64,000 nt of DNA from Terrabacter sp. Root181 (GTDB taxonomy: Bacteria; Actinomycetota; Actinomycetes; Actinomycetales; Dermatophilaceae): positions 186,712-250,711 of the forward strand of contig NZ_LMHU01000006.1 of assembly GCF_001428505.1 (NCBI RefSeq), in the 5' to 3' direction. Below are positions 48,982-56,819 of this stretch, piece by piece. Below the pieces are notes generated by a model. It worked only from the letters and a program-made list of their open reading frames with translations. It did no database searches and had not been told where the DNA came from. Position 1 is the stretch's first letter. Each line of letters begins with the position of its first letter. Position numbers and translations under genes: made by a program.

Positions 48982-49902
48982 ATGCAGTCCGTGGCCCCCT
49001 CGTCCGTAGCCCCGAACCCGAACGGCGTCCGCCGCACGCTGCTCATCATCGGCGGTGCCGAGGACCGGATCGGGCGGTCGGTGGTGCTCAAGCGCTTCGT
49101 GAAGCTGGCCGGCGGTCGGCGGTCGCACATCGTCGTCATCCCCACGGCGTCCTCGTACGCCGAAGAGGTGTCCGAGGCGTACCGCGACGTCTTCACCCGG
49201 CTGCGCGGTGGTGAGTACTCCGTCGTGCACCCGCAGACGCGTCGCGACTCGAGCGACCCGGCGATGGTCGAGGCGCTCGACGCCGCGACCGGGGTCTTCA
49301 TCACCGGTGGCAGCCAGGTCAAGCTGGCCCAGAACATCGTCGGCACGCCCGTCGGCGACGCCGTGGTGCGCGCCTACGAGCGGGGCGCCGTCGTGGCCGG
49401 CACGTCGGCCGGCGCCTCGATCATGAGCCGCTTCATGATCTCGCTCGGCGAGGAGGGCCTGACGCCGAAGCAGCGCGCCAGCCAGATCTCGGCCGGCCTC
49501 GGCCTCATCGAGGACGTCATCATCGACCAGCACTTCGACCAGCGAGGCCGCTACGGCCGCCTCATGTCGATGGTCGCCGCCTCCCCCAACCTGCTCGGCA
49601 TGGGCATCGACGAGAACACGGCGGCCGAGATCCGCGGCGGCAGGGTCATGTCGGTCATCGGGGCCGGCTCGATCTTCGTCGTCAACGCCCGCAACGCCAT
49701 CACCGACGCCCCCGACGCGCGGCGCGGTGCGCCGCTGCTCGTTTCGGGCGCGGTCGTGCACTCGCTGCCCACGGGCAGTACGTTCGACCTGGACCACGTC
49801 GAGCTGACCGCGTTCGTCGAGCGTCACCCCGACATCGAGGGTGCGGTCGTCCCGGCCAAGGTCCGCGCGGCGCGCTCGTCGACGAGCAGCGCCGCCCACT
49901 GA
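48982..49902 (+). CDS. cphB: cyanophycinase CphB
   Basis: 306 residues, the size of intracellular cyanophycinase. It cuts cyanophycin into beta-Asp-Arg dipeptides (S51 serine peptidase). The nucleophile is Ser142 in the elbow VVAGTSAGASIMS; other conserved stretches are LLIIGGAEDRIG, VVIPTASSYAEEVSE, FITGGSQVKLAQNI and DVIIDQHFDQRGRYGRL. No signal peptide, so cytosolic. TAGGCT at 48970-48975 is 6 nt before the ATG. It sits immediately upstream of cphA, the usual pair. Confidence 0.94.
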   Translation: MQSVAPSSVAPNPNGVRRTLLIIGGAEDRIGRSVVLKRFVKLAGGRRSHIVVIPTASSYAEEVSEAYRDVFTRLRGGEYSVVHPQTRRDSSDPAMVEALDAATGVFITGGSQVKLAQNIVGTPVGDAVVRAYERGAVVAGTSAGASIMSRFMISLGEEGLTPKQRASQISAGLGLIEDVIIDQHFDQRGRYGRLMSMVAASPNLLGMGIDENTAAEIRGGRVMSVIGAGSIFVVNARNAITDAPDARRGAPLLVSGAVVHSLPTGSTFDLDHVELTAFVERHPDIEGAVVPAKVRAARSSTSSAAH

Positions 49903-49997: not shown

Positions 49998-52889
49998 ATG
50001 GCCGTCGAGGTACCCACCCCCACAGGCCCGGCCCGACCGGACCTGAAGATCCTCGAGACCCGGATCTACCGCGGACCCAACGTCTGGTCCTACCAGCAGG
50101 CCGTCCACCTCGTCGTCGACCTCGGCAGCCTCGAGGAGTACCCCACCGTCTCGCTGCCGGGCTTCACGGACCAGCTCGTCGAGCTCGTGCCCGGGCTCGA
50201 GCGCCACACGTGCTCGCTCGGGCGCCGCGGCGGCTTCATCGAGCGGCTGCGCGAGGGCACCTGGCTCGGTCACGTCGCCGAGCACGTGGCGCTGCAGCTG
50301 CAGACCCTGGCCGGCCACGACTCGCGCCGTGGCAAGACGCGTGCAGTCAAGGGCAAGCCGGGTCAGTACAACGTCGTCTACAGCTACACCGACGAGACCG
50401 TCGCCGTCGCCGCCGGCAAGCTCGCGGTGCGCCTCATCAACCACCTCGTCGAGCCCCAGGACGGCTTCGACTTCGAGACAGAGTTCAACGCCTTCCTCCG
50501 CCAGGCCGAGCGCGTCGCCTTCGGCCCCTCGACGGCCGCCATCCTCGAGGAGGCGGCCTCCCGCGACATCCCCTACATCCGCCTCAACTCCGCCTCGCTC
50601 GTCCAGCTCGGCCAGGGTGTCCACGCCCAGCGCATCCGCGCCACGATGACGTCGAAGACGGGCGCGCTCGCGGTCGACATCGCGAGCGACAAGGACCTCA
50701 CGACGAAGCTCCTCGGCTCGGCAGGTCTGCCCGTGCCCAAGCAGGAGGCCGTGCGCACCCTGCGGGGTGCCCTCGAGGCGGCTCGCCGCATCGGGTTCCC
50801 CGTCGTCGTCAAGCCGCTCGACGGCAACCACGGCCGCGGCGTGTGCCTCAACCTCATGAGCGACGCGGACGTCGAGAAGGCCTACGACATCGCCAAGTCC
50901 GAGTCGCGGCGCGGCACGATCATCGTCGAGTCCTTCGTGACCGGTCGCGACTACCGCTGCCTCATAGTCGGCGGCCGCATGCAGGCCATCGCCGAGCGCG
51001 TCCCCGCTCACGTCATCGGCGACGGCACCCACACGGTCGCCGAGCTCGTCGACATCACCAACGCCGACCCCCGCCGCGGTGTCGGTCACGAGAAGGTGCT
51101 GACGAAGATCAAGGTCGACGCCAACGCGCTCGAGATCCTCGCCGGCCAGGGGCACACGACCGAGTCCGTGCCGCCCGAGGGCGAGATGGTCAAGCTCGCC
51201 CTGACGGGCAACATGTCGACCGGTGGCATCTCGATCGACCGCACCTTCGACGCACACCCGGACAACGTCGAGATCGCCGAGGAGGCCGCCCGCATGGTCG
51301 GGCTCGACGTCGCCGGCATCGACTTCATCTGCCCCGACATCACCTACCCCGTCCGCGAGACGGGTGGCGCGATCTGCGAGGTGAACGCGGCGCCCGGCTT
51401 CCGGATGCACACGCACCCGACCGTCGGCGAGCCGCAGTTCATCGCCAAGCCGGTCGTCGACCTGCTCTTCCCCCCGGGTGCGCAGTCGCGCGTGCCGATC
51501 GTCGCCGTCACCGGCACCAACGGCAAGACCACGACCTCGCGCATGATCGCCCACATCTTCAAGGGCCTCGGACGCAAGGTCGGCATGACCTCGACCGACG
51601 GCGTCGTCATCGACGAGCGGCTCGTCATCAAGGCCGACGCCTCCGGCCCGCGCTCGGCCCGGATGGTCCTGCAGAACCCCCGCGTCGACTTCGCCGTCAT
51701 GGAGGTCGCCCGGGGCGGCATCCTGCGCGAGGGCCTCGGCTACGACCGCAACGACATCGCCGTCGTCACCAATGTGGCTCCAGATCACTTGGGGCTCAAG
51801 GGAATCGACACCCTGCGTCAGCTGGCCGACGTCAAGGCGGTCATCGTCGAGGCCGTGCCGCGCGACGGCTTCGCGGTGCTCAACGCCGACGACCCGAACG
51901 TGCGCAACATGCGCCGCCGCTGCTCGGGTGGCATCGTCTGGTTCTCGATGGCCGAGCCGGGCAGCGAGACCCGCGAGTTCGTCGACGACTACTGCCGCCG
52001 TGGCGGACGTGCCGTGGTGCTCGAGCCGAGCGAACGCGGCGAGATGATCGTCATCAAGCACGGCCGGCGCAGCATGCAGCTCGCCTGGACCCACCTGCTC
52101 CCGTCGACGTTCGGCGGCGCGGCGCGCTTCAACGTCGCCAACTCGCTCGCGGCGGCGGGCGCGGCGTTCGCCGCAGGGGCCCCGCTCCACGACATCCGTC
52201 AGGGCCTGCGCACCTTCGCGACGACCTACTACCTCTCCCCCGGACGCCTGAACCTCGTGCAGGTCAACAACGCCGACGTGTTCGTCGACTACTGCCACAA
52301 CGCGGCCGGCATGAAGGAGCTCGGCGCCTTCGTCGACCGCTACGCCGACCAGAAGCAGCGCCAGGCCGATCTCGGCAAGACCTCGCGCATCGGCATGATC
52401 GGTGCGGCGGGCGACCGGCGCGACGACGACATGCGCGAGCTCGGGGCGGTGGCCGCGCAGCACTTCGACGTCATCGTCATCCGTGAGGACGAGCGCCTGC
52501 GCGGCCGCAAGCCCGGCGAGACCGCTGAGCTCGTGGCCGAGGGCGCCCGCGCCGCCATGCGCGAAGGCGCCCGCTGCCGGCAGGTGGAGATCGTGCTCGA
52601 CGAGCTCGACGCCGCGCGGCACGTGCTCGCGCGCACCAACCCGGGCGACCTCGTCGTCATGTGCGTCGACCAGCACGCGCTGGTGGTCGCCGAGCTCGAG
52701 GAGCGCACCAAGCACGCCCAGGCCGGCGCCCGCATCGGCACGGCCGCGGCCGCCACGAGCGACCCCGACCTCGACCCGAGCACCCTCACCGAGACCGCCG
52801 AGGCGGAGGGCGACGAGGCGGAGGGCGAGGCCCTCGGCGCCGTCCCGTCCGAGTCGCCGCCGGACCAGGCGGACGACACCGCCATCTGA
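49998..52889 (+). CDS. cphA: cyanophycin synthetase CphA
   Basis: 963 residues, somewhat longer than the ~870-residue norm because of an acidic C-terminal tail (~910-963). It polymerises Asp and Arg with ATP without a ribosome. The N domain (~14-160, ILETRIYRGPNVWSYQQAVH), the ATP-grasp domain (~200-490, PVVVKPLDGNHGRGVCL) and the Mur-ligase domain (~495-900) are all present. The Mur P-loop is GTNGKTTT at 506-513, with NVAPDHLGLKGIDTLRQLAD and VDYCHNAAGM following. The ATG has AGGAGGAG upstream. A CGGCATAC copy sits at 49953-49960 in the upstream gap. Confidence 0.95.
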   Translation: MAVEVPTPTGPARPDLKILETRIYRGPNVWSYQQAVHLVVDLGSLEEYPTVSLPGFTDQLVELVPGLERHTCSLGRRGGFIERLREGTWLGHVAEHVALQLQTLAGHDSRRGKTRAVKGKPGQYNVVYSYTDETVAVAAGKLAVRLINHLVEPQDGFDFETEFNAFLRQAERVAFGPSTAAILEEAASRDIPYIRLNSASLVQLGQGVHAQRIRATMTSKTGALAVDIASDKDLTTKLLGSAGLPVPKQEAVRTLRGALEAARRIGFPVVVKPLDGNHGRGVCLNLMSDADVEKAYDIAKSESRRGTIIVESFVTGRDYRCLIVGGRMQAIAERVPAHVIGDGTHTVAELVDITNADPRRGVGHEKVLTKIKVDANALEILAGQGHTTESVPPEGEMVKLALTGNMSTGGISIDRTFDAHPDNVEIAEEAARMVGLDVAGIDFICPDITYPVRETGGAICEVNAAPGFRMHTHPTVGEPQFIAKPVVDLLFPPGAQSRVPIVAVTGTNGKTTTSRMIAHIFKGLGRKVGMTSTDGVVIDERLVIKADASGPRSARMVLQNPRVDFAVMEVARGGILREGLGYDRNDIAVVTNVAPDHLGLKGIDTLRQLADVKAVIVEAVPRDGFAVLNADDPNVRNMRRRCSGGIVWFSMAEPGSETREFVDDYCRRGGRAVVLEPSERGEMIVIKHGRRSMQLAWTHLLPSTFGGAARFNVANSLAAAGAAFAAGAPLHDIRQGLRTFATTYYLSPGRLNLVQVNNADVFVDYCHNAAGMKELGAFVDRYADQKQRQADLGKTSRIGMIGAAGDRRDDDMRELGAVAAQHFDVIVIREDERLRGRKPGETAELVAEGARAAMREGARCRQVEIVLDELDAARHVLARTNPGDLVVMCVDQHALVVAELEERTKHAQAGARIGTAAAATSDPDLDPSTLTETAEAEGDEAEGEALGAVPSESPPDQADDTAI

Positions 52890-52901
52890 GCAGGCTGCGG
52901 A

Positions 52902-55163
52902 TCAGTCTGCGGCTGTTGCTTTCGCGGGGGCCAGCTCGTCGGCGTAGGCCCGCAGGGCGCGGCGGTAGGCCTGTGTGTCGACGTCGGTCGTCGCTTCGAG
53001 CGTCGCCCGGATGAGGTCGGCGACGGCTTGGCGCTCCTGGCCGAGGTCGGCCTGCACGAGCGCCCTGAGCATGAGCGCCGCGGTGTTGTGCGGCCGTGCC
53101 TCGAGGACGTCGGCGACGAGTCCCTGCGCCTCGGCGGCCCGTCCGACGACGCGCAGGCTCGAGGCGAGCTGCAGCTGGGCCCGGTGCCGGTGCGGCTCGC
53201 GCAGGCCGCCCGCGAGGGCGTCCTCGTAGAGACCGATGGCGCCCTGCTCGTCGCCCATCGCGTCCTTGACGCCGGCCAGCTCGAAGACGAGACGTGGGTC
53301 GCCCGGGTGGCCGTCGACGAGCTCCTGCGCGGCAGCGAGCCTGGTCTGATGGTCGTCGCTCTCCCAGAGGGCCGCGATCTCGGCCTCGAGCTCGTGCTCA
53401 CCGCGCGCGGCCACGACCTTGCGGCGGATCGAACGGGCATCGTCGACCTTGCCGCCGTGGGCGCGGATCCAGCCGTCGACCTCGGTGCGCTCGGCGTGGC
53501 ACATGAGCGCGATGACGTCGCCGTCGAGCGCGTGCGGCACGAGAGCCTCGAAGGACTCGAGCTCGGTGTCGTAGCCGGGCACGTCGAGGACGCCGACCTT
53601 GGCCAGGCCGTCGCGGAAGAGACCGAGCAGGTCCTCGACCTCGCGTCCGCGCAGGTAGTGGCGGGCGACCTTGAGGACGACCTCCTCGGCCCCGCGCCCG
53701 GCGATCTCGCCCATCGCGACGATCGCCTCGTCGGCGCGGTCGCCGGCGCAGCCCAGTCCGAGGCGGACGGCGCCACCCGGTGCGGCGAGCCCGCGTGCGA
53801 CGTCGAGCAAGGCCTCGAGACCGGCCTCGTTGTGGGCCATGTCCATGATGACGGTCGCCTTGCCCCCGCTCGGGAGCGGCAGCGAGTAGGTGTTGAGCCG
53901 GCCCCAGTTGTGCTCGGGGTCGGGGGCGAAGGTCCGAAGTCCGTCGACCACGGCCGAGCGCGGGACGCCGAGTCCCAGGGCGGCGGCGGCACCGGCCAGC
54001 GCGTTGGCGATGTTGTTTCGCGACAGGCCGCTCAGGGTCATGGGGACGTCGACGATCTTGACGAGCCGGTCGGGGTCCCCGTTCGGCGACAGGACGACGA
54101 TCTCGCCGTCGAGCACGGTGATGCCGCGGCCGCCGGAGTTGATCGACTCCCAGAGCGCGGGCGACGCGGGGTCGAGGCTGAATGCCCACGGCTTGGCCTT
54201 GATGCCGAACCGCATGGCCCAGACACGGGGGTCGTCGCCGTTGAGCACGACCCACCCCTGCGGCTTCGTCACGGTCGTGACGATCGCCTTGACCTCGGCC
54301 AGCTGGTCGAGCGTGTCGATGCCCTGCAGGCCGAGGTGGTCGGCGCTGACGTTGGTGACGACGCTGACGTCGTTGGTCGTGACGCCCATGCCCTTGAGGA
54401 GCATGCCGCCGCGGGCGGTCTCGAGGATGCCGATGTCTAGACCGGGCGTCTCGAGCACGCCCCGCGCCCCGGCCGGCCCTGAGAAGTCGCCCTCCTCCTT
54501 CGTCTCCCCCATGACGACGACCCCGTCGGTCGAGCTCCACGCCGTCGTCAGGCCTGCGCTCATGCACATGTGCGCCATGAGCCGGGTCGTCGTCGTCTTG
54601 CCGTTGGTGCCCGTGACGGACGCGACGGGGACGGTCGGCGTGAGGACGCTGGGTCCGGGACCGTCGGGCGCGGCCAGGATGACGGCCGCGGCCTCCTCGA
54701 TGACCTCGTCGGCACGCCTGGAGGGGTCGAGCAGGCCGGCCATGACGGCGCCGAACTGCTCCCCCGCGACGCGGCCCCGCGTGCGGTGCACCCACGGGAA
54801 GGCGAGCACGACGTCCTCGACGGTCTGTCCCGCCCGAACGCGTACGCCCAGACGGCCCGCACCGATCTCGGTGCCCACGCGACGCGTCACGGTGCGGATG
54901 ACCCGCATGACGAAGCGCTGGCGCAGGGCCGTGCCGCGCTTGCCGGGGCGCGCGGAACGCATCCCGAGCCGACGGGCCAGGGCCTCGGCGTCGGTGCGCT
55001 TGAGGTCGAGGTAGCCGGGCACATGCAGGATGACCTTGATCGCGGGCCGGGCGAAGTAGAGGTTGGGCCCGTCGAGCACCCGCACCTCGTCGACACGGAC
55101 CTGCGGCACCGCCTCGGGTTCGGTCGTCGTCAAGGGGCTGGACTCGGTCCCGGCGTGAGGCAT
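52902..55163 (-). CDS. cyanophycin-synthetase-like Mur ligase with C-terminal TPR module, no ATP-grasp
   Basis: 753 residues. An N-terminal part (~20-130) aligns with the start of CphA (VRVLDGPNLYFARPAIKVIL against the CphA RGPN region). The ATP-grasp domain is absent. The Mur-ligase domain (~178-595) is full: P-loop GTNGKTTT (185-192), WSSTDGVVVMGE, LETARGGMLLKGMGV, NVSADHLGLQGIDTLDQLAE, WGRLNTYSLPLPSG, IMDMAHNEAG and GCAGDRADEA, each with a CphA counterpart. The rest (~607-740) forms TPR-type repeats (PRLVFELAGVKDAMGDEQGA). Start ATG by TAGAGT 7 nt upstream. It is convergent with cphA with 12 bp between stops. The reaction is not known; a ligase of amino-acid or dipeptide units is inferred. 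Confidence 0.82.
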   Translation of the reverse strand: MPHAGTESSPLTTTEPEAVPQVRVDEVRVLDGPNLYFARPAIKVILHVPGYLDLKRTDAEALARRLGMRSARPGKRGTALRQRFVMRVIRTVTRRVGTEIGAGRLGVRVRAGQTVEDVVLAFPWVHRTRGRVAGEQFGAVMAGLLDPSRRADEVIEEAAAVILAAPDGPGPSVLTPTVPVASVTGTNGKTTTTRLMAHMCMSAGLTTAWSSTDGVVVMGETKEEGDFSGPAGARGVLETPGLDIGILETARGGMLLKGMGVTTNDVSVVTNVSADHLGLQGIDTLDQLAEVKAIVTTVTKPQGWVVLNGDDPRVWAMRFGIKAKPWAFSLDPASPALWESINSGGRGITVLDGEIVVLSPNGDPDRLVKIVDVPMTLSGLSRNNIANALAGAAAALGLGVPRSAVVDGLRTFAPDPEHNWGRLNTYSLPLPSGGKATVIMDMAHNEAGLEALLDVARGLAAPGGAVRLGLGCAGDRADEAIVAMGEIAGRGAEEVVLKVARHYLRGREVEDLLGLFRDGLAKVGVLDVPGYDTELESFEALVPHALDGDVIALMCHAERTEVDGWIRAHGGKVDDARSIRRKVVAARGEHELEAEIAALWESDDHQTRLAAAQELVDGHPGDPRLVFELAGVKDAMGDEQGAIGLYEDALAGGLREPHRHRAQLQLASSLRVVGRAAEAQGLVADVLEARPHNTAALMLRALVQADLGQERQAVADLIRATLEATTDVDTQAYRRALRAYADELAPAKATAAD

Positions 55164-55202: not shown

Positions 55203-55964
55203 TCACTGGCCCATCGCGTGGACGCCGCCGTCGACGTGGATGATCTCGCCCGTCGTGGCGGGGAACCAGTCGCTGAGCAGCGCTGCGCAGGCCTTGGCCG
55301 CCGGCACCGGGTCGTTGACGTCCCAGCCGAGCGGGGCACGGTCGTCCCAGACCTTCTCGAACTGCTCGAAGCCGGGGATCGACTTGGCCGCCGTCGTGCG
55401 GATCGGACCCGCCGCGACGAGGTTGCAGCGCACGTCCTTGGGGCCGAGGTCGCGGGCGAGGTAGCGGTTCGTCGACTCGAAGGCGGCCTTGGCCACGCCC
55501 ATCCAGTCGTAGACCGGCCAGGCGAACTTCGCGTCGAAGGTCAGGCCGACGACGCTGCCGCCCTCCGTCATGAGGGGCAGGGTCGCGACGGCGAGCGACT
55601 TGAGGCTGTAGGCCGAGATCTGGAGCGCCGTCGAGACGTCCTCCCACGTGCCCTCGAGGAAGTTGAAGGCACCCTGCGGCGCGAAGCCGATCGAGTGCAG
55701 CACGCCGTCGAGCCCGTCGACGTGCTCGCGCAGGCGCTCGGCGAGCGTGTCGAGGTGCTCCTGGTCGGCGACGTCGAGCTCGATGACCACCGGGGTCTCA
55801 GGGAGCCGCTTGGCGATGGTCTGGGTGATCTTCATCGTCCGGCCGAACGAGGTGAGCACGACCGTCGCGCCCTCCTGCTGGGCGATCTTGGCCACGTGGA
55901 ACGCGATCGAGCTGTCCATGAGGACGCCGGTGATGAGGAGCTTCTTGCCTTCGAGGATTCCCAT
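55203..55964 (-). CDS. fabI: enoyl-[acyl-carrier-protein] reductase FabI/InhA type
   Basis: 253 residues, NADH-dependent reductase of the last fatty-acid elongation step. It has LEGKKLLITGVLMDSSIAFH (dinucleotide loop of the InhA type), LHSIGFAPQGAF, and the catalytic pair in FAWPVYDWMGVAKAAFES (Tyr and Lys six residues apart). GGSVVGLTFDA precedes the active site. The ATG at 55964 opens with MGILEGKKLLITG as in relatives. It is downstream of fabG on the same strand, 81 bp apart, with a CGGCATAC hairpin between. Confidence 0.94.
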   Translation of the reverse strand: MGILEGKKLLITGVLMDSSIAFHVAKIAQQEGATVVLTSFGRTMKITQTIAKRLPETPVVIELDVADQEHLDTLAERLREHVDGLDGVLHSIGFAPQGAFNFLEGTWEDVSTALQISAYSLKSLAVATLPLMTEGGSVVGLTFDAKFAWPVYDWMGVAKAAFESTNRYLARDLGPKDVRCNLVAAGPIRTTAAKSIPGFEQFEKVWDDRAPLGWDVNDPVPAAKACAALLSDWFPATTGEIIHVDGGVHAMGQ

Positions 55965-56015
55965 GCCTGCGACTTTCTCGAGTGGGTGGGGACGCTTGCT
56001 GCGCAAGGACGTTCG

Positions 56016-56034
56016 CGGCATACGGGAGTATGCC
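56016..56034. repeat. intercistronic CGGCATAC inverted pair
   Basis: Perfect 8-bp inverted repeat: CGGCATAC (56016-56023), GGGA loop, GTATGCCG (56027+1 to 56034). It lies 11 bp after the fabG stop and 52 bp before the fabI start. It may attenuate read-through or only be a tight pair of the window-wide motif. Confidence 0.8.
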
Positions 56035-56045
56035 GTGTGGTGGGC

Positions 56046-56819
<774 letters not shown>

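Follow-up and report, generated by a model that had tools for sequence, protein, structure and literature searches.

What does a second CphA-like ligase do beside a complete cyanophycin synthetase gene? Cyanophycin is a bacterial nitrogen-storage polymer, described as made by one enzyme. In the 64,000-nucleotide stretch of Terrabacter sp. Root181 analyzed here (contig NZ_LMHU01000006.1, positions 186,712 to 250,711; hereafter, the window), the gene for a 753-aa protein (P0001; 52902..55163, minus strand) lies tail-to-tail with a complete cphA (49998..52889, plus strand) across a gap of 12 bp, and the cyanophycinase gene cphB (48982..49902, plus strand) lies beyond cphA, as an earlier note on this DNA had described. 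We refer to this protein and its relatives as M. Our reading, to which we assign a probability of roughly 0.42, is that M is a working Mur-type amide ligase, driven by ATP, that serves cyanophycin metabolism and adds something other than arginine to a chain.

P0001 begins with a CphA-like N domain (approximately residues 22-165; 54669..55100, minus strand; start EVRVLDGPNLYF) that lacks the HxxEH zinc-peptidase motif, followed by Mur ligase middle and C-terminal domains (approximately residues 175-570; 53454..54641, minus strand). The latter contain the P-loop GTNGKTTT (residues 184-191, including K189; 54591..54614, minus strand) and the signature YLRGR (residues 503-507; 53643..53657, minus strand), which carries a one-residue insertion relative to CphA and is preceded by fewer acidic residues than in CphA. 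The C-terminus consists of tetratricopeptide (TPR) helical repeats (approximately residues 590-745; 52929..53396, minus strand), based on model helices and TPR matches, including Pfam TPR_5 at residues 625-744. No ATP-grasp domain, the part that adds Asp in CphA, was matched by Pfam in P0001 or in three M relatives, and about 185 residues precede the P-loop in P0001 versus about 500 in CphA. The earlier note's layout for 52902-55163 (CphA-like N domain, complete Mur unit, TPR, no ATP-grasp) was confirmed. P0001 scored 326.5 bits against the cyanophycin synthetase model TIGR02068, across residues 177-556 only and below the curated cut-off of 850, and the 30 M places of the class sample described below also stayed under that cut-off (320-386 bits).

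The alignment indicated a complete Mur catalytic site. T212, E248, D275, H276, and K292 (which we take to be the modified lysine of Mur ligases) were each present in 68/68 M rows, from Actinomycetota to Alphaproteobacteria, and K189 in all 67 M rows having a letter there. These and the other residue counts over 68 M and 67 CphA-side rows are based on rows classed by BLAST score alone, with no motif used and none dropped. K189, T190, T212, and E248 of M align with K499, T500, T522, and E558 of TeCphA1, which bind ATP and Mg (PMC9427784), and D275/H276 align with D585/H586 of SuCphA1, a pair whose joint mutation abolishes M-domain activity (PMC9262961). M thus shares with cyanophycin synthetase a Mur-type domain with intact ATP-binding and catalytic residues, and the inactive site that the earlier note had named as a possible objection was not found by alignment; a pseudoenzyme by residue loss was rejected, given the five catalytic residues in all 68 rows. 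M and CphA have motifs around D226-G229 and A250-G253 in common, which suggests that they may hold the carboxylate substrate alike.

To place M relative to cphA, genomes were sampled at the order, class, and phylum levels; the samples overlap and contain M in 53 genomes in total. A match was found in 11 of 149 genomes of the order sample, all 11 of which had both M and a CphA-like place. The class sample (394 Actinomycetia genomes) contained M in 30 genomes and a CphA over the family cut-off in 37, and all 30 were among the 37; cphA occurred without M in seven genomes and M without cphA in none (Fisher p ~1e-38, uncorrected for ancestry). Every candidate was scored in the seven cphA-only genomes, giving just CphA-like matches and one weak Mur match. 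In the phylum sample, 24 of 396 genomes had a match, all of them M or M pieces, and 22 of the 24 had a CphA-like place; none was seen in G785, in which only two candidates were scored, or in G728, which is 67% complete. The co-occurrence with cphA, which the earlier note had proposed as a test, is not random: 30/30 M genomes of the class sample have cphA. In all 43 genomes with M and CphA on one contig the two were convergent, their aligned stretches being 64 bp to 9 kb apart. A gene of about 120 aa, cupin-like by eye, was seen between cphA and M at three loci (L089:10127-10489, L090:8085-8447, L100:8645-9001).

Outside the phylum, a tblastn search of 72,556 plasmids detected M in Shinella zoogloeoides, 'Roseateles' XES5 (a record marked as unverified organism), and two Ruegeria. 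All four proteobacterial plasmids have the order cphB-cphA-M in a single direction, and M is annotated there only as 'Mur ligase family protein'. No M was found in the cphA-iaaA-cphB stretch of the Sphingobium, Deinococcus deserti, Rhizobium, and Pelagibacterium plasmids that were opened. Where M occurs, the storage pathway probably has an extra step, because M accompanies cphA in many related and a few unrelated bacteria. The non-random association with cphA and the complete set of Mur catalytic residues support, at the level of genomic inference, the earlier note's proposal of an extra enzyme of cyanophycin metabolism.

Phylogeny and diagnostic residues separated M from CphA. An exact P-loop pattern picked the rows for the pre-P-loop lengths, for the trees, and for the HxxEH, tail-length, loop-charge, D831, and H556 counts; in all of these except the pre-P-loop lengths the M label came from Y[LF]RxR, so P-loop and Y503 counts there follow in part from how the rows were chosen. 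Missed by the pattern were at least L018 and L020 (M) and L061 and L070 (CphA). A further four M rows, L068, L073, L074, and L075, were removed manually, L117, L119, and L120 stand outside the CphA count, and some CphA genes were read in two loci, so that the CphA rows are not independent. In an unrooted tree (quick method) of Mur domains, 61 from M and 61 from the CphA side, one branch split the two groups with 99 support in the Shimodaira-Hasegawa-like approximate likelihood ratio test. Judged by these sequences, M is a separate family, sister to the Mur half of CphA, and a recent split of M from the neighboring cphA was rejected, the two being on either side of that branch across 122 rows. 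With a very distant MurE outgroup, alphaproteobacterial M, actinobacterial M, and CphA formed an unresolved fork in which M needs two label changes.

Among the rows classed by BLAST score, Y503 (the insertion) was found in 68/68 M and 0/67 CphA-side rows, G232 in 68/68 M rows (S in 67/67 CphA), and N419 in 68/68 M versus 4/67 CphA-side rows. Conversely, CphA R808 was present in 66/67 CphA-side and 0/68 M rows, D811 in 64/67 and 2/68, and E618 in 63/67 and 0/68. The pattern Y[LF]RxR itself was found in 65/68 M rows, the exceptions being YLRGT, YLRGN, and one outside the stretch read. H556 was rejected as a conserved residue of M, being kept in only 47/62 rows. HxxEH was absent from all 61 M rows whose N part is complete and present in 45/47 CphA rows (Cx19HxxEH in 41/47). 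The suggestion that M trims primers was consequently rejected.

A TPR-length tail (≥560 residues after the P-loop) was found in 21 of 62 M rows, all in one branch (families f1 and f5), and 40 of the 62 end 379-411 residues past the P-loop. One member of the TPR branch, L025, has 459 residues after the P-loop and may be broken; L018 and L020, which are outside the 62-row set, have matches to P0001 that extend to its residues 751 and 748, respectively. The core M enzyme is therefore N plus Mur, and a general docking role for the TPR part, as the earlier note had imagined, is not supported. In the first predicted structure of full-length P0001 most of the Mur part had a pLDDT below 50, and the 50 alignment rows listed for that model were matches to the TPR part; the mean pLDDT was 74 once CphA Mur rows were added.

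What M adds was approached through the loop before xRxR, which lines up with DNPR in the MurE encoded by the same genome. This MurE motif takes part in choosing the amino acid: its first Asp contacts the amino end of the incoming residue, whose far carboxylate is bound by the Asn and Arg (PMC3829189). The six residues before xRxR contained on average 0.76 acids in the 62 M rows versus 2.44 in CphA (pattern found in 55/59 rows), with a net charge of +0.82 versus -1.15. Together with the differences at Y503, G232, R808, D811, and E618, which we place on the amino-acid side, these changes may be read, by analogy with MurE, as an amino-acid partner shifted away from arginine, which is not proof. 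Separately, three genomes of one family (G197, G180, G157; loci L101, L102, L103) lack M and have two complete CphAs each, one copy per genome showing an acid-free loop with a PS motif (VIPSSLSLRGR, VVPSLVNLRGR, VVPSRISLRGR). Such an acid-free second CphA would possibly fit another route to a second ligase of changed specificity, seen in three related genomes only.

Several points weigh against a non-arginine ligase of cyanophycin metabolism. The column of CphA D831 (D in 55/59) has E in 26/62 M rows and D in one, a column made uncertain by the Y503 insertion, which also brings an extra Y into the six-residue window. The loop argument rests on MurE because no description of arginine bound to the CphA M domain was found in the accessible parts of the cited CphA structural literature, and the DNPA motif of MurE is not the sole element of its specificity (PMC3829189). 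CphA E618 corresponds by alignment to SuCphA1 E607, which contacts cyanophycin bound at the N-domain site (PMC9262961), and because it is lost, the way M holds the polymer may differ from that of CphA. The class and phylum counts were obtained with only two candidates scored per genome, and ancestry and gene linkage both enter into the co-occurrence counts.

The same evidence bears on other explanations. M could add arginine like the CphA M domain, repairing bare Asp side chains or making starter pieces; the shared fold, catalytic set, and gene neighborhood are consistent with this, as are R476 (GDR motif, C-terminal domain; kept in 68/68 M rows) and the E in the D831 column. We nevertheless consider it unlikely, as R808 and D811 of CphA are lost in M and the loop acids are fewer. 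In addition, HxxEH is the primer-making motif of the CphA N domain (PMC9262961), and primers need no second enzyme, because the CphA of the window (intact Cx19HxxEH: C72, H92, E95, H96) and 45/47 CphA rows keep it. Ligation of beta-Asp-Arg dipeptides for recycling, which cyanobacterial CphA2 performs with a different domain, seems to us quite unlikely. MurF is a Mur ligase that uses a dipeptide, whereas CphA2 works through its ATP-grasp half. Curated models found the IaaA family in 3/30 M genomes and IadA in 0/30, and in the stretches read iaaA was not seen in the four M plasmid clusters and was present in five without M, all of which would suit a dipeptide ligase; the contrast with IaaA in 3/7 cphA-only genomes is weak, however, and not significant (p 0.07), and the census covered IaaA and IadA among dipeptidases that also include CphZ. 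In a sixth plasmid cluster, iaaA adjoins an unclassified Mur-family gene that is split over two frames. Across the 37 cphA-bearing actinomycete genomes, the IaaA family was found in 6/37 and IadA in 0/37 by curated models, while iadA and/or iaaA were reported, by different methods, in all 35 cphA1-bearing Actinomycetota genomes (PMC10206079).

CphA tetramers form via Mcore-Gcore contacts (PMC9427784), and M retains the N and M parts, so a catalytically idle partner that joins and regulates CphA assemblies can be envisaged; the five catalytic residues kept in 68/68 rows from Actinomycetota to Alphaproteobacteria make this very unlikely. Lastly, a fabI/inhA-type enoyl-acyl carrier protein reductase gene (55203..56021, minus strand) lies upstream of M in the same orientation, 39 bp away, with a fabG-type reductase gene (56046..56780, minus strand) 24 bp further upstream, and the next upstream same-strand gene was of the fabI family in 13/23 M loci (rough gene call). 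We give almost no credence to a role in fatty-acid synthesis with an incidental place beside cphA, since no genome of the class sample had M without cphA, on the Shinella, Ruegeria, and XES5 plasmids M follows cphB-cphA and the stretch shown contains no fab gene, and M with fabI was not found in cphA-free genomes.

As a non-arginine ligase, M would act on a CphA-like acceptor: it would phosphorylate one of its carboxylates, most likely that of the free side chain of an Asp at a chain end, and couple an amino compound other than arginine to it. In the resulting cyanophycin the side chain would differ or the end would be capped, which could alter chain growth, solubility, or attack by cyanophycinase. 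We infer the activity, the acceptor, and the non-arginine co-substrate; capping as the purpose, and docking through TPR in the TPR-bearing branch, are guesses.

Among known systems, M differs from CphA (CphA1) in having no ATP-grasp or HxxEH, in the Y503 insertion, and in lacking R808, D811, and E618. CphA2 keeps the ATP-grasp part; M, with no ATP-grasp in Pfam, retains Mur instead, CphA2 having been compared by description only. Like M, CphA2 is a second CphA-like enzyme whose N domain has no peptidase motif (PMC9262961). M has a CphA-type N domain where MurE has its UDP-MurNAc-binding domain, and P0001 scored 79.3 bits against the murE family (cut-off 257.3), compared with 465.5 bits for the genome's own MurE. 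Legionella adelaidensis P0005 and Deinococcus deserti P0006 resemble M in combining an N domain and Mur with no Pfam ATP-grasp match; unlike M, they group with CphA in the tree, match the N-domain model PF18921, and lack Y503, so these are separate losses of ATP-grasp. On the L. adelaidensis plasmid, the ATP-grasp-less CphA relative (L120:4323-6191) has an intact HxxEH and is followed by cyanophycinase and isoaspartyl peptidase genes, and the stretch read contained no cphA. Two Deinococcus plasmids encode CphA-like proteins annotated as 'Mur ligase family' on the CphA side of the tree (L119:5044-7218, no ATP-grasp match; L117:4699-7215, weak ones only), and in the plasmid of Deinococcus sp. 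KNUC1210 an unclassified Mur-family gene annotated as two pieces follows cphA, iaaA, and cphB (L116:4705-7204).

Relatives at 72-96% identity are from Terrabacter, Terracoccus, Humibacillus, Intrasporangium, and others of that group. Terminator-like hairpins were seen at 52893-52915 of the window, across the 12-bp gap and the end of M (4 in the region versus 1.5 expected by scan), and a promoter scan found none.

No characterized family with another function, which the earlier note had named as a possible objection, was found via Pfam, NCBIfam, PDB sequences and folds, or the cyanophycin papers searched, and none of the matches listed from an open-access library, which lacks most subscription papers, described an M protein. 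Two activated-sludge Tetrasphaera genomes are reported to have two serial 'cphA copies' of unequal length, the longer expressed more (PMC10687191). The shorter may be M, in which case some 'second cphA copies' of the literature may be this gene, and if the Tetrasphaera pair is cphA plus M, the counting of expression changes. It is conceivable, if doubtful, that the 'cyanophycin' of actinomycetes and some proteobacteria is not plain (Asp-Arg)n, with a separate Mur ligase decorating or capping it with another block. If true, the storage polymer of these bacteria would be a different material, not defined by CphA alone. The conservation of this cphA-bound ligase family, whose amino-acid loop is altered, indicates that a whole set of producers probably carries an unassigned step.
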